Positions 44,451-50,924 of a stretch of 52,823 nucleotides of DNA are shown here, piece by piece (position 1 is the first letter of the stretch; each line of letters starts with the position of its first letter). Both the position numbers and the translations under genes were made by a program. Under the pieces are notes generated by a model. It did not search any database and was not told where the DNA came from. It worked only from the letters and a program-made list of their open reading frames with translations. This stretch comes from Nitrospinota bacterium (GTDB taxonomy: Bacteria > Nitrospinota > Nitrospinia > Nitrospinales > Nitrospinaceae): positions 1 through 52,823 of the forward strand of contig JAOUPX010000007.1 of assembly GCA_029879645.1 (NCBI GenBank), read 5' to 3'.

Positions 44451-45368
44451 ATGCGGCTAAATAAGCCCTTGGGCCAGGTTCTGGTATATGGTGAGGTGCT
44501 GTTTGACAAGTTTCCGGATCGAACGAGTTTGGGGGGGGCGCCGTTCAATTACGCGTTTCACCTGAATCATTTGGGAGTTCCTGTCCGACTGATCAGCAGA
44601 GTTGGAGGCGACCAGCAGGGACAGGATATTATGAAACGGCTACAGAGTATCGGATTTTCCATAGAAGGGGTCCAACTGGATATTATCCATCCAACGGGAG
44701 AGGTGGAGGTGAACCTGGATGACAAAGGAGTTCCAGAGTTTAACATTCTGCCTGACCGTGCGTATGACTATATCGAGTTCGATTCCTACATTGAAGCCCT
44801 GGCCCGAAAAGAAATTGCGCTGGTATATTTTGGGACCCTGGCCCAACGCCATTCAACATCCGCCGAAACCCTGTATAAAATCCTGAAGCTACTTTCTTCC
44901 CGCTCGACCTTTATGATGGATATCAATCTCCGGTATCCTTTTTACACGCCTGATGTCATAGAAAAATCTCTTCAGAATTGTGATATTTTGAAAGTCAATC
45001 AAGACGAGTTGAGCGTGATTAAAGAAAGCCTGTCCTTCAGTTCCCCGGTCAGCCGTCTTCCCTGGTATTTGCTAGACAGGTACAAAATAGGCTTCCTTTG
45101 CGTGACAAAGGGAGAGGAGGGAACTGAATTGTATGAGGCGGGAAGCAAGGTTTCATTTCATTGTCCCGGTTTGCCTCAGGAGGAAGTGGTGGATACCGTG
45201 GGCGCGGGGGATGCTTTTTGCGCCATGTTGACGGCCGGTTACCTGGCCGGTTGGCCCAAGCAAACACTGATCGAAAAAGCCACGGAATTCTCCCATCAGA
45301 TTTGTGAATTTTCGGGGGCGCTCCCTGAAAATCTGGAATTTTACAAACCTTTTCGATTTAATTCATGA
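44451..45368 (+). CDS. PfkB-family sugar kinase, probable fructokinase
   Basis: A 305-residue ribokinase-fold kinase with a strong AGGAGGAAGG ribosome site. Motifs: GGAPFNYAFHLNHLG and SRVGGDQQG near the N-terminus, and the catalytic Asp in DTVGAGDAFCAM. The YGEVLFDKFP start is found in bacterial fructokinases. It overlaps sucrose synthase by 4 bp, and sucrose cleavage releases fructose, so fructose-6-phosphate formation is the natural reading. Other PfkB sugars remain possible. Confidence 0.87.
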   Translation: MRLNKPLGQVLVYGEVLFDKFPDRTSLGGAPFNYAFHLNHLGVPVRLISRVGGDQQGQDIMKRLQSIGFSIEGVQLDIIHPTGEVEVNLDDKGVPEFNILPDRAYDYIEFDSYIEALARKEIALVYFGTLAQRHSTSAETLYKILKLLSSRSTFMMDINLRYPFYTPDVIEKSLQNCDILKVNQDELSVIKESLSFSSPVSRLPWYLLDRYKIGFLCVTKGEEGTELYEAGSKVSFHCPGLPQEEVVDTVGAGDAFCAMLTAGYLAGWPKQTLIEKATEFSHQICEFSGALPENLEFYKPFRFNS

Positions 45369-47791
45369 CGGACGCTTCCAAGGTTAAAAATACTGAGTGG
45401 TCTTCTTTGATGGTGGAGGAAGAAGCTCGATTTTTCCGGGAATTTGTTAATGACCTGAATCAGCAACCCGCCCGGCATCTGCTTCACAATGAAATCGTTC
45501 TGCGATTCACTCAGTTTTTAGACAAACACAATTCCGGAAAACGGGACCCGGATGATTTTTCCAGTCTGAGGGATTTCTTATCCAAGACCCAGGAAATGAT
45601 TCTGGTGGAAGAATATACGGTGCTTCTGTATCGCAAACGTGCGGCCCAATATCAAATCTACCGGGTTCATAATGTTAACGGCCAGGTGGAAGAGATGAGT
45701 CAGGAGGACTTCCTGGACTTTAGGGAAATAGTGGCAAACCGCGCGTATGTTCCCCCGGAGAAAAAACTTCTGATTGATTTTCAGCCGTTTTACAGCATCG
45801 GGCCGGAAGTTCCCGGACCCAAAAAAATTGGCTCCGGACAAAGATACTTAAACAGTTATATGGCTGGCAAGCTTCAGGCAGAGCCGGAAACCTGGCAAAA
45901 CTTTCTTTGTGAATTTTTAAAAATCCACCGTATTCATGATAATCCCATTCTGGTGAATGGCGATAAGATAGGTGGCCCGAAAGAGTTGGTGGGGGCGCTT
46001 CAAAAAGCGATCACGACTCTCGAGGCGTTCGATGAAGATACGCCGATTCAGGAAGCCCGTGCTTCACTGGAAAGTTTGGGTATTCGCGATGGTTTTGGAG
46101 ATACGGCCGGGCGAGCGGCAACCCATTTGCAATTGCTGTTCAATCTTTTCGAATCGCCGAGCGCAGATTATCTGGAAGAATTTATCGGCGCGATTCCTCT
46201 GATTTCCCGCGTTGCCGTTATTTCACCTCACGGTTGGTTCGGGCAGGACCATGTGCTTGGCAGGCCCGATACTGGGGGGCAGGTGGTTTACATACTCGAT
46301 CAGGTGAAAACGCTGGAAGCTCACCTGAAGCATTCACTGGCCTCCGCTGGCATCGCGATTTCTCCCAGGGTTCTGGTGGTGACCCGTCTCATTCCTGAAA
46401 GTCAGGGCACTACAAGTGATCAGCGTCTTGAAAAGATAGAAGGTACGGATAACTGCTGGATTCTCCGTGTTCCATTCCGGGACGAGCAACAGAATATCAT
46501 TCCACAATGGCTTTCCAGATTTCAGGTGTGGCCGTATCTGGAGCAGTTTGCATTGGATGCAAAAAACGAACTGCTGAAAGAATTTGACGGCAAGCCGGAC
46601 ATGGTTATTGGAAATTATTCCGACGGCAATCTGGTGGCCTCTCTTCTGGCCCCCTGGTTTCAAGTCATTCAATGCAATATCGCTCATTCGCTGGAGAAAC
46701 CCAAGTACCTGTTTTCGGATCTCTACTGGCAGGACATGGAGAAGGATTTTAACTTTTCGCTTCAGTTCACCGCTGATTTGATATCCATGAATAAGGCGGA
46801 TATTATTATTTCCAGCACCGCCCAGGAAATTGCGGGTACGGATTCCGCTCTTGGACAATACGAATCCTACTGCTTATTTTCCATGCCGCAGTTATACAAG
46901 GTGACCCATGGGGTCAATTTATTCCATCCCAAGTTTAATATGTTTTCCCCCGGAGTTGATGAATCGATTTATTTCCCATATACCGAGACCTCCCGGCGTC
47001 TGAAAAATAAAACAAAAGAATTAAGCGAACGATTATTTCTCAATAAGGGAGACGATATTTTCGGCGAGTTGGAGGATCCGGATAAAACCCCCATCTTTAC
47101 AATTGCCCGACTGGATAAGATTAAAAATCTGACTGGGCTGGTGGAGAGTTTTGGGAAAAGCGAGAGGCTCCGCGATAAAGCCAACCTGATAGTCGTGACC
47201 AGCGCGGTTCGGGAAGAGAATGTGACGGATGAAGAGGAAATGTCCGAATTGAAAAGAATGTACCAGTTGATCGAACAATACGGGCTCCACTCGCATATCC
47301 GATGGATCGAAAATTCCTCCCGTCAGGATGGGGCAGAGAGCTACCGGATCATTGCCGACCGGAAAGGGGTGTTTGTCCAACCCGCTTTATTTGAAGCGTT
47401 CGGGCTGACGGTCCTGGAGGCCATGGTGTCCGGTCTGCCGGTTTTTGCCACCCAGTTCGGAGGGCCTCAGGAGATTATAGTTCACGGGGAAAACGGATAT
47501 CTGATCAACACCACTCAACCGGAGCTTATCAGCCAACCCATTGTGGATTTTATTCAAAGATGCGAACAGGCGCCTTCCTGCTGGGACACACTGGGTGGTC
47601 AGGCTATTGCCCGCGTTCGGGAACGTTTCACCTGGAGTCTGTACTCCGAAAAATTGATCAAGGCGGCCAAGCTGTATGGTTTCTGGAATTTTTCGGTATT
47701 GGGCGATGAAAAGAAGGAGATCGACCGGTACTGCAACCTGCTATTCCATATGGTATTTAAGAGCCGGGCGCAACAACTGCTCGGGGATTAG
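45365..47791 (+). CDS. sucrose synthase
   Basis: An 808-residue GT-B glycosyltransferase that interconverts sucrose + NDP and NDP-glucose + fructose. The plant/cyanobacterial layout is kept: an N-terminal regulatory region (~1-270), then the GT-B core beginning SPHGWFGQDHVLGRPDTGGQ. The glycosyl-donor motif near the C-terminus is ALFEAFGLTVLEAMVSGLP (E-x7-E with Glu residues eight apart), followed by TQFGGPQEII. Length is close to the usual 800-810. Sucrose-phosphate synthase is shorter or carries a phosphatase domain and lacks this N-terminus, so SuSy fits better. It overlaps fructokinase by 4 bp. Confidence 0.93.
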   Translation: MTDASKVKNTEWSSLMVEEEARFFREFVNDLNQQPARHLLHNEIVLRFTQFLDKHNSGKRDPDDFSSLRDFLSKTQEMILVEEYTVLLYRKRAAQYQIYRVHNVNGQVEEMSQEDFLDFREIVANRAYVPPEKKLLIDFQPFYSIGPEVPGPKKIGSGQRYLNSYMAGKLQAEPETWQNFLCEFLKIHRIHDNPILVNGDKIGGPKELVGALQKAITTLEAFDEDTPIQEARASLESLGIRDGFGDTAGRAATHLQLLFNLFESPSADYLEEFIGAIPLISRVAVISPHGWFGQDHVLGRPDTGGQVVYILDQVKTLEAHLKHSLASAGIAISPRVLVVTRLIPESQGTTSDQRLEKIEGTDNCWILRVPFRDEQQNIIPQWLSRFQVWPYLEQFALDAKNELLKEFDGKPDMVIGNYSDGNLVASLLAPWFQVIQCNIAHSLEKPKYLFSDLYWQDMEKDFNFSLQFTADLISMNKADIIISSTAQEIAGTDSALGQYESYCLFSMPQLYKVTHGVNLFHPKFNMFSPGVDESIYFPYTETSRRLKNKTKELSERLFLNKGDDIFGELEDPDKTPIFTIARLDKIKNLTGLVESFGKSERLRDKANLIVVTSAVREENVTDEEEMSELKRMYQLIEQYGLHSHIRWIENSSRQDGAESYRIIADRKGVFVQPALFEAFGLTVLEAMVSGLPVFATQFGGPQEIIVHGENGYLINTTQPELISQPIVDFIQRCEQAPSCWDTLGGQAIARVRERFTWSLYSEKLIKAAKLYGFWNFSVLGDEKKEIDRYCNLLFHMVFKSRAQQLLGD

Positions 47792-48536: not shown

Positions 48537-49679
48537 GTGCTGATTTATTTTTCATTGTTTCAAATTTGTTTAATCGTGGTGGCCGTAGTCTATCTGGGGG
48601 TCAACGCTCCTTTCTTGTTAAAAGTTGAAGCGTTCTCTGGCTCGCTGGGAGATTCCCCCCTTATTTCAGTGTGCGTCCCGGCGCGCAACGAAGAGAGGGA
48701 TATCGAAGCCTGCCTCACCTCTCTCTTGAGTCAGGATTATCCCCGTTTTGAGGTAATTGTAGTGGACGACAATTCTACAGATCGTACTCCAGAAATTATT
48801 AAGGGTTTGCAGAAACGGTTTCCCAAGCTGACTGCTATTCAGGGGGCGTCTTTACCTTCCGACTGGTATGGAAAACCTTTTGCTCTGCATCAGGCCAGCC
48901 AAAAGGCGCAAGGGGATTTATTATTGTTTACCGATGCCGATCCCGTGTTTGGACCGAAGGCCCTGAGCACGGCGGCTTATTTATTCCAGAAGCATCAACT
49001 GGACATGCTCACACTTTTGCCGGGGGCCGAGTTTGGTTCATTCTGGGAACGAACGGTGCAACCGGTTATTTTCGCCTTTATTGCCGCCCTCACTCGCTTC
49101 CGGAAGGTGAACAATCCGAAGTCAGACGCTGCGATGGGGGTGGGAGCCTTTATCATGGCGCGGCGGGAGGTATATGATCGCGTGGGCGGCCACCAATCCC
49201 TCAAGCAGACTATTCTGGAGGATATCGGTATGGCGCACCTGTTGAAACAGGCCGGTGCCAAAATAATGATTGCCGACGGCAGGAATATCTATTCCATCCG
49301 CATGTATCATTCGTTGAAGGAAATATGGATTGGCTGGCGAAAAAATGTTTTTCTGGCGATGAAAAAATCCACCTTCAAAACATTTTATTATATCTTCTGG
49401 ATATTGGGATTTCTGGTCACCCCGTGGCTGGTGGTAGCGGTTCATTTGTGGATGGATTCCCCGCCGATGTGGCAGGGGCTGGCGCTAGCGGGTTTGGCTA
49501 TGGTATGGATTTCCCAGGCTACATTATGTTATGAACTCAGACTGAAGCAACGTAATGCTCTGCTGTTTCCCCTGGGCGCTCTGGTGATGGTCGCTATCAT
49601 GATCAACTCCATGATCCATGTATTGTTCCGGGGGCAGGCTGAATGGCGCGGGCGAACATATAAACAACCGGAAAGGTAA
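48537..49679 (+). CDS. family 2 glycosyltransferase, membrane-bound
   Basis: 380 residues from GTG 48537, with AGGA 8 bases upstream. An N-terminal helix (ICLIVVAVVYLGV) is followed by a GT-A domain (~42-265): VCVPARNEERDIEACL, VVDDNSTDRTPEII, the metal motif FTDADP and the acceptor-side LEDIGMAHLL with IGWRKN. Three C-terminal helices follow, then GRTYK. The form resembles carotenoid or hopanoid-associated glycosyltransferases (CrtQ, HpnB). The acceptor cannot be told. The DUF1858-fusion gene starts 4 bp downstream. Confidence 0.87.
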   Translation: MLIYFSLFQICLIVVAVVYLGVNAPFLLKVEAFSGSLGDSPLISVCVPARNEERDIEACLTSLLSQDYPRFEVIVVDDNSTDRTPEIIKGLQKRFPKLTAIQGASLPSDWYGKPFALHQASQKAQGDLLLFTDADPVFGPKALSTAAYLFQKHQLDMLTLLPGAEFGSFWERTVQPVIFAFIAALTRFRKVNNPKSDAAMGVGAFIMARREVYDRVGGHQSLKQTILEDIGMAHLLKQAGAKIMIADGRNIYSIRMYHSLKEIWIGWRKNVFLAMKKSTFKTFYYIFWILGFLVTPWLVVAVHLWMDSPPMWQGLALAGLAMVWISQATLCYELRLKQRNALLFPLGALVMVAIMINSMIHVLFRGQAEWRGRTYKQPER

Positions 49680-49683
49680 CAGA

Positions 49684-50604
49684 ATGGAAATTTGGGCAAA
49701 GCGATTTACTAAAATGGCGCTTATTTATCTGGCGTTGGGAGTGGTGATGGGTATGGTGATCGGGAGTCAGCCGGAATGGAGCCAGCGACTGCGCTTTGTT
49801 CATATCCATCTCAATCTGCTGGGGTTCATGACCATGTTTATTGCCGGGGTGGCCTACCATGTACTGCCTCGTTTCAACGCCAGGCCGGTTCCCTGGCCCG
49901 ATGGCGTCAAGTATCATTTCCTATTACACAACACCGGGTTGCTGGGCATGGCAACCACTCATCTTGCTGGAGGTCTCTGGTCCGGCGGACTTTTGCATGT
50001 CGCGTTCGTTATGTTTGCAGTAATGACTGGCGCAGGGCTGTTGATCATGGCCTACAATCTATACTCGGTCATGATTCCCGTAAAAGAGGGGACCGAAGTC
50101 AAGGAGATCACAGGGGGTATGAAGGTGGGGGATGTGTTGGACCAGTTTCCGGCCTCACTCCAGATCTTCATTGATGCCGGATTCCACAGCCTGTCCAATC
50201 CTGTGGCGCGTAAAGCCTTCGCGAGTGTCGTGACTATTCAGAAAGCCTGCGAGAAGCATGAGGTGGAGTTAGGCGGTTTTCTAAAACAACTCAATTCCGC
50301 TTTATTCAGTAAATCGGGCAGGCCCGGTCAATCCGGCAAGCCCCCTGCGCAGGCTTCAGACGGCAAAGAAGAAGCGCCGGTTGGTGTTGCCATGGGAAAA
50401 GGAAAACCCTGTACGCGGGATACTATGGTGGGCAGCCTCATCAAAATCCATCCCGAAACCAAAACGGTATTTGAAAAACATTACGGTGAGGGATGCTTTT
50501 CCTGTCCCGGCCAGGTTTATGAAACCGTCGAACAGACGGCACACATGCACAATATCGATCCCGAATTGATCCTCAAAGAGATCAACGCAATGATTGGGAA
50601 ATGA
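49684..50604 (+). CDS. heme-oxidase-subunit-I-like membrane domain fused to two DUF1858 domains
   Basis: 306 residues from ATG 49684, which has GGAAAGG before it. Residues ~10-140 hold four hydrophobic helices with His-rich ends (VHIHLNLLGFMTMF, AYHVLPRF, YHFLLHNTG, TTHLAGG), like a piece of cbb3 oxidase subunit I or NnrS. Then come two DUF1858 domains: the first (~145-205, KVGDVLDQFPASLQIF) lacks Cys and has NP-x-x-R; the second (~248-304) has the redox pair CFSCPG. DUF1858 is thought to take part in thiol or nitric-oxide-linked redox chemistry. A role in NO or redox sensing or detoxification is inference. It overlaps the TfoX-like gene by 4 bp. Confidence 0.82.
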   Translation: MEIWAKRFTKMALIYLALGVVMGMVIGSQPEWSQRLRFVHIHLNLLGFMTMFIAGVAYHVLPRFNARPVPWPDGVKYHFLLHNTGLLGMATTHLAGGLWSGGLLHVAFVMFAVMTGAGLLIMAYNLYSVMIPVKEGTEVKEITGGMKVGDVLDQFPASLQIFIDAGFHSLSNPVARKAFASVVTIQKACEKHEVELGGFLKQLNSALFSKSGRPGQSGKPPAQASDGKEEAPVGVAMGKGKPCTRDTMVGSLIKIHPETKTVFEKHYGEGCFSCPGQVYETVEQTAHMHNIDPELILKEINAMIGK

Positions 50605-50924
50605 AACAGGATTCATTTAAAGAGTTCGTGCTGGAGCAGTTGGCGGGAATGGAGAATGTCGCATGCCGTGCCATGTTCGGCGGGTTCGGGTTATACCACC
50701 ATGACCATTTCTTCGGTATCCTGCATAAAGGGCGGCTGTTTTTTAAAACCAACGTTCACACCCGTCCCGGCTACGAGGAATACGGGATGAAGCCGTTTCA
50801 GCCTTCAGAAAACCAGATTCTTAAAAATTATTATGAGGTCCCGCCGGATATTCTTGAGGATAGAGATGCGGCCATTCTTTGGGCAAAAATATCAGCCCAC
50901 ATCTCACTCGCGTCATCAGATTGA
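50601..50924 (+). CDS. TfoX N-terminal-domain protein
   Basis: A 107-residue protein made only of the TfoX_N domain: CRAMFGGFGLYHHDHFFGI, GRLFFKT, YYEVPPDILED. In TfoX/Sxy this domain is followed by a second one and the protein activates competence genes; single-domain forms like this are common and unstudied. It overlaps the DUF1858 fusion by 4 bp (ATGA), so the two are translated together. Confidence 0.88.
   Translation: MKQDSFKEFVLEQLAGMENVACRAMFGGFGLYHHDHFFGILHKGRLFFKTNVHTRPGYEEYGMKPFQPSENQILKNYYEVPPDILEDRDAAILWAKISAHISLASSD

Follow-up and report, generated by a model that had tools for sequence, protein, structure and literature searches.

A predicted single repeat of the heme-copper-oxidase fold joined to two DUF1858 domains in Nitrospinota and distant bacteria

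What is an oxidase-like membrane segment of only four helices, and what could it do in a protein that ends in two DUF1858 domains? This question is raised by a gene in a 52,823-nucleotide stretch of DNA (contig JAOUPX010000007.1; the whole stretch analyzed is referred to here as the window) from a Nitrospinota genome of 3.2 Mb that is 94% complete. Among named records, the relatives of this genome were Nitrospinaceae and other Nitrospinota MAGs, and the source organism is a relative of marine nitrite-oxidising bacteria. The features of the locus are as follows.

48537 to 49679, + strand: family-2 glycosyltransferase gene, HpnB/CruG-like, upstream in the same operon (380 aa; Pfam PF00535, 104.5 bits)
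49684 to 50604, + strand: main gene, predicted four-helix oxidase-repeat unit followed by a DUF1858 domain and a DUF1858 domain with CxxC (306 aa)
49699 to 50088, + strand: four-helix membrane unit, residues 6-135 (PF00115; family profile against CcoN in the PDB)
49801 to 49809, + strand: H40-I-H42, conserved histidine pair (alignment to H345-x-H347 of P. stutzeri CcoN; conservation)
50107 to 50271, + strand: first DUF1858, residues 142-196, NP-x-x-R type (PF08984, 55.7 bits against a cut-off of 32.2)
50413 to 50586, + strand: second DUF1858, residues about 244-301 (PF08984, 44.7 bits against a cut-off of 32.2)
50494 to 50505, + strand: C271-F-S-C274 (CxxCPG), kept without change in all 29 of the 29 fused proteins
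50601 to 50924, + strand: TfoX_N single-domain gene, downstream (107 aa; PF04993, 84.8 bits against a cut-off of 30.1)

The tight spacing described in an earlier note on this DNA was confirmed: the glycosyltransferase ends at 49679, leaving a 4-bp gap, and the TfoX_N gene starts at 50601 with a 4-bp overlap. The glycosyltransferase scored 190.5 bits against HpnB and 142.3 bits against CruG, both below the cut-offs. In the same window, an 808-aa gene at 45365-47791 appeared by eye from its translation to be sucrose synthase-like, and is immediately preceded by a PfkB-type sugar kinase gene (44451-45368, also by eye). Profile searches of the source genome revealed only one set of COX1 and DUF1858 matches, those of the main gene. 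The search for plasmid carriage of the locus gave no match, and none of the phage families searched was found.

A domain-architecture search for the fusion, which the earlier note had proposed, showed that it is widespread, and because the domain order is kept in dozens of genomes, the main gene is real and chance or an assembly artefact is excluded. A homologue was present in 49 of the 77 genomes of the phylum, including 26 of the 31 good-quality ones, and the full fusion was found throughout the order at 51-62% identity. At lower identity, it also occurred in distant MAGs labelled Deltaproteobacteria, Desulfobulbaceae, Desulfobacterales, Deferrisomatales, Rokubacteria, Latescibacterota, Zixibacteria and Spirochaetia; a Chloroflexi locus (L130) was unfused. 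Among 35 sampled rows, a DUF1858 match was found in 29, a COX1 match in 29 and the fusion of the four-helix (4TM) unit with CxxC-DUF1858 in 29. Searches of open-licence papers found no description of the fusion, of TfoX together with DUF1858, or of four-helix oxidase units. P. aeruginosa PA2663 was considered as a studied relative and dropped, since it has been described with two transmembrane regions (PMC3299288).

Judged from sequence profiles, the four helices make up a single heme-copper-oxidase repeat, homologous to CcoN. PF00115 (COX1) matched residues 6-135 of the main protein with 33.1 bits, just below the cut-off of 34.8; other single units of the family reached up to 46 bits, and the tandem proteins described below 101-102 bits. 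In a search of the PDB, the 4TM family profile matched CcoN of several cbb3 oxidases (E from 7e-12, best 7.1e-12, to 2e-7) and, weakly, NorB. The top-scoring stretch of CcoN was its last third, and the first and second thirds were also matched in order, weakly (individual E > 1), as expected for a repeat. Comparison by hhalign with a relative's Nitrospina-type fused CcoNO protein gave an E-value of 3e-7 in the same registration as the PDB alignment, and comparison with NorB aligned helices I-IV (E 1.3e-4); the fused cbb3 of Nitrospina has been described previously (PMC3578206). The AlphaFold2 model of the main protein (mean pLDDT 88) had four long helices predicted in the membrane part, and Foldseek matched it foremost, at probabilities near 1, to cbb3 CcoN, cNOR and ba3 subunit I. 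Because the E-values of these Foldseek matches were 0.08 or higher, the fold is better supported by the sequence profile.

The earlier note had read the histidines of all four helices as placed like those of cbb3 oxidase subunit I or NnrS. The oxidase-like region held up, but only the helix-2 pair, H40 and H42, is conserved. Counted along the 3mk7 alignment, these two residues fall on H345 and H347 of P. stutzeri CcoN, which lie on helix X and ligate its high-spin and low-spin hemes. Among 124 distinct units, H40 was kept in 123 and H42 in all 124. The remaining histidines were found in 86 (H59), 86 (H78), 16 (H82), 28 (H93) and 32 (H105) of the 124 units, no histidine besides H40 and H42 reaching 70% conservation, and the position of H59 was F in 35 units. 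H59, H78, H82, H93 and H105 were thus ruled out by conservation as family-wide heme ligands, and with HxH as the sole conserved pair the idea of a heme pocket built of histidines from four helices was not borne out. The charge distribution was weakly compatible with a cytosolic location of both ends, which would place the HxH near the periplasmic side, as in oxidases.

The second DUF1858 domain has the CxxC pair that had been claimed for it (C271-F-S-C274), scored 75.2 bits against TIGR03980 (redox-disulfide type; cut-off 44.95), and has 2k5e and 2k53 as relatives in the PDB. The first had been described as free of cysteines. It indeed has no CxxC and is of the NP-x-x-R type, but it carries C189-x-x-H192, of which the cysteine was present in 22 and the histidine in 24 of the 29 fused proteins. 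ScdA_N scored 23.8 bits on the main protein, below the cut-off of 32.5, and a hemerythrin domain was not found in it. In another system, a DUF1858 gene beside nnrR is activated by NnrR (PMC6710368).

Genomes of the same genus revealed a different arrangement. Seven of them encoded the four-helix part, 67-88% identical, in a frame that ends at about residue 137, and searches found no DUF1858 in any of the seven, three of which were at least 95% complete. At loci L028, L029, L030, L048, L049 and L050, both DUF1858 domains were cleanly missing from about residue 137. This pattern may reflect several losses, or loss and regain. Since seven congeners keep the 4TM part without DUF1858, the two halves are not obligately coupled. 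TfoX lay 3-6 bp beyond the shortened 4TM gene in four of the congener loci examined, whereas inspection of distant loci showed no TfoX. Where retained, TfoX goes with the membrane unit and not with DUF1858, and the earlier suggestion of TfoX as a helper of the DUF1858 part therefore lost ground.

Within 36 Nitrospinales loci, a few of which lie on contigs that end too early to show neighbours, the glycosyltransferase was the same-strand upstream neighbour in 31 and TfoX the same-strand downstream neighbour in 19. Neighbourhood counts, here and below, cover genomes that are related to one another and should not be read as independent events. norB was located 2-235 bp upstream of the 4TM gene in nine genomes, with norC before norB where the locus reaches that far; these nine appear to belong to one lineage, so they may represent one event. 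A divergent CRP/FNR gene was found in ten genomes (Pfam-checked in two of these). In about 14 genomes, the 4TM gene stands alone and is closely followed by separate CxxC-DUF1858 genes, and eight sampled genomes have a cluster in which Nfu, ferredoxin, 4TM, ScdA_N and/or DUF1858, and Mrp are encoded together. Several split loci had, within a few kb, genes for a COX1-family protein and for a protein that looked CtaB-like by eye, and many distant loci had unrelated neighbours. Overall, the surrounding genes point to NO and iron-sulfur biology. Fused in some genomes and encoded by adjacent genes in others, 4TM and CxxC-DUF1858 seem to function as a pair.

Two further observations concern these neighbourhoods. 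Loci L175-L180 and L182 contained Nfu, ferredoxin, 4TM, CxxC-DUF1858, ScdA_N (DUF542) and Mrp, and several of these loci also had a gene of the COX1 family close by. A protein of ~220 aa, weakly ATC-hydrolase-like (PF14196) and of no clear family, adjoined both fused and unfused 4TM genes (L077, L080, L084, L086, L089, L092, L175, L177 and L182).

With regard to NO physiology, NirK was identified in the source genome (320 bits, above the cut-off). NirK has been reported in most Nitrospinota, norBC as absent from all Nitrospinota genomes analyzed and cbb3 as mostly missing (PMC10839748), and N. gracilis has been described with no known NO reductase (PMC3578206). A role in sensing NO or in coping with it would suit such a physiology. 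The claim of a membrane heme or NO protein gained indirect support from the HxH that aligns with the CcoN ligands, the nine norCB-linked relatives, NirK, and the lack of any other COX1 match in the source genome.

In a 297-genome sample of the phylum of locus L102, 47 genomes matched the full-length profile at E 1e-20. Genomes G131 and G167 each encode, in a single ORF (L166:18-1247, + strand; L167:1785-3032, - strand; lengths 415 and 429 aa), three complete four-helix units, every unit with an HxH and with 102-122 bits against the unit profile; these proteins are expected to be 12-helix and oxidase-like. Another ORF (L168:2386-3261, + strand) contained two units, for which 8 helices are expected, and the HxH was gone from the first. 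Since a true oxidase subunit I (L169) scored only 26-39 bits per third against the unit profile, the tandem proteins stand near the single-unit family. A possible tandem triplication independent of that of the oxidases is favoured by the tree, in which the tandem units branched outside the oxidase thirds, but AU tests allow the alternatives, neither of which was rejected (p 0.35-0.42), and this leaves the scores as its support. In addition, L170:996-2741, L171:918-2663 and L172:996-2750 encode proteins of 581-584 aa with the order DUF1858, NnrS/COX1-type core, DUF1858; the 12-helix protein of the L170 type has the two DUF1858 types of the main protein, one at each end. One family thus contains predicted oxidase repeats in single, double and triple form.

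The reading that we prefer, tentatively and at somewhat less than even confidence, is an oligomeric membrane heme-b protein of NO or redox stress whose cytosolic DUF1858 domains would take part in thiol or iron-sulfur chemistry. It builds on the homology to the CcoN fold, the HxH, the fusion or adjacency with CxxC-DUF1858, and the links to norCB, CRP/FNR and iron-sulfur genes, and it would add to these that heme is bound, that the protein is oligomeric, that NO is a ligand and that the two halves are coupled. The single four-helix repeat would self-assemble, most likely as a trimer, because oxidases hold three repeats and two relatives carry three in tandem. Heme b would be held by the helix-2 H-x-H near the periplasmic side, the 4TM unit would sense or handle either NO or the redox state of respiration, the cytosolic DUF1858 domains (one with CxxC, one with C-x-x-H) would perform thiol or iron-sulfur chemistry, and the whole protein may serve in nitrosative or redox-stress defence. 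Against the NO part of this reading, the gene's own operon neighbours are a glycosyltransferase and TfoX, without NO genes. A separate proposal, which we consider doubtful, is that stand-alone oxidase repeats with H-x-H form homotrimers with heme at their interfaces and represent an ancestral-like block, the tandem members re-enacting its triplication. If true, the family would be a living equivalent of the block that gave rise by triplication to 12-helix oxidases, NO reductases and NnrS.

Other roles can be weighed against the same evidence. The position of the 4TM gene directly after norCB in nine genomes, together with the COX1-family and CtaB-like (by eye) genes a few kb away in several split loci, would suit an assembly or maturation helper whose repeat binds heme or hands it to NorB or oxidase subunit I while DUF1858 handles thiols there. 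However, the protein occurs throughout the order though Nitrospinota have been reported without norBC and mostly without cbb3 (PMC10839748), and the source genome has no other COX1 match, so we regard such a role as unlikely. It is quite unlikely that electrons move, in either direction, between the membrane heme and the cytosolic CxxC with TfoX assisting. This heme-to-thiol path, put forward in the earlier note, can draw on the fused or adjacent HxH unit and CxxC domain and on the naming of TIGR03980 as a redox-disulfide domain. It was weakened by a predicted topology in which the HxH lies at the end of helix 2 that faces the periplasm, with the CxxC and its DUF1858 domain on the cytosolic side, by the replacement of H59, the second possible ligand, with F in 35 of 124 units, and by congeners that keep 4TM without DUF1858, four of them with TfoX. 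Finally, the repeat might be a heme-free anchor that merely tethers DUF1858 to the membrane or binds quinone, lipid or another partner, which would agree with a single repeat without the full oxidase ligand set and with a hopanoid/carotenoid-type glycosyltransferase as the conserved neighbour in the order of the window. We consider this improbable, as it leaves unexplained why units with little else in common in their residues keep a near-invariant HxH exactly at the heme-ligand position.

The pseudo-threefold build of heme-copper oxidases is long established, and their origin from a four-helix block has been hard to test. With single units that carry the diagnostic H-x-H, and with two-unit and three-unit tandem forms, heme binding and oligomerisation of one repeat become directly testable. 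The family also brings together two players that are poorly understood, DUF1858/ScdA_N thiol domains and putative membrane units of oxidase type, in a common module close to genes for NO reductase and iron-sulfur proteins, a module that is present as well in relatives of marine nitrite oxidisers, in which NirK is encoded and a known NO reductase is reported missing.

Among the closest known systems is CcoN, the cbb3 subunit I (PDB 3mk7, 8smr), with which the main protein shares the fold of helices IX-XII, the H-x-H of H345/H347 and the following Y-H-x-x-P region. CcoN has 12 helices, CuB histidines and a helix II histidine, whereas the main protein has one repeat, no CuB ligands and a DUF1858 tail. 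As regards heme-copper oxidase subunit I in general, the helix X H-x-H was found in the main protein (aligned to 3mk7 H345/H347), but the 12-helix core and the CuB/FeB histidines of helices VI-VII were not, there being no second conserved histidine site. NorB (cNOR), whose helices I-IV align and whose gene is a neighbour in nine genomes, is a full 12-helix enzyme with an FeB site, whereas the 4TM unit is without FeB ligands. NnrS (PF05940) is a membrane heme-copper-type protein of the NO regulon, and one NnrS/COX1 relative of 12 helices carries two DUF1858 domains (L170), but NnrS has 12 helices and the main protein has four and no PF05940 match; the NnrS profile search of the source genome was empty, but control profiles were silent too. 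The ScdA/RIC/YtfE iron-sulfur repair proteins begin with DUF542, a relative of the CxxC DUF1858, and the two domains occur together in unfused loci; these proteins have a hemerythrin-like di-iron domain that the main protein lacks, and its ScdA_N score stayed below the cut-off. DrpB of Thermus thermophilus places DUF1858 in a membrane-associated regulator of nitrate respiration, but consists of DUF1858 and two DUF2249 domains with no membrane domain, unlike the main protein (PMC6282519). With the hybrid-cluster-protein-associated domain TIGR03980, the similarity lies in the tail, where both domains are DUF1858 and the second is also TIGR03980; such domains also exist as small stand-alone proteins, whereas here they are joined to a membrane unit.
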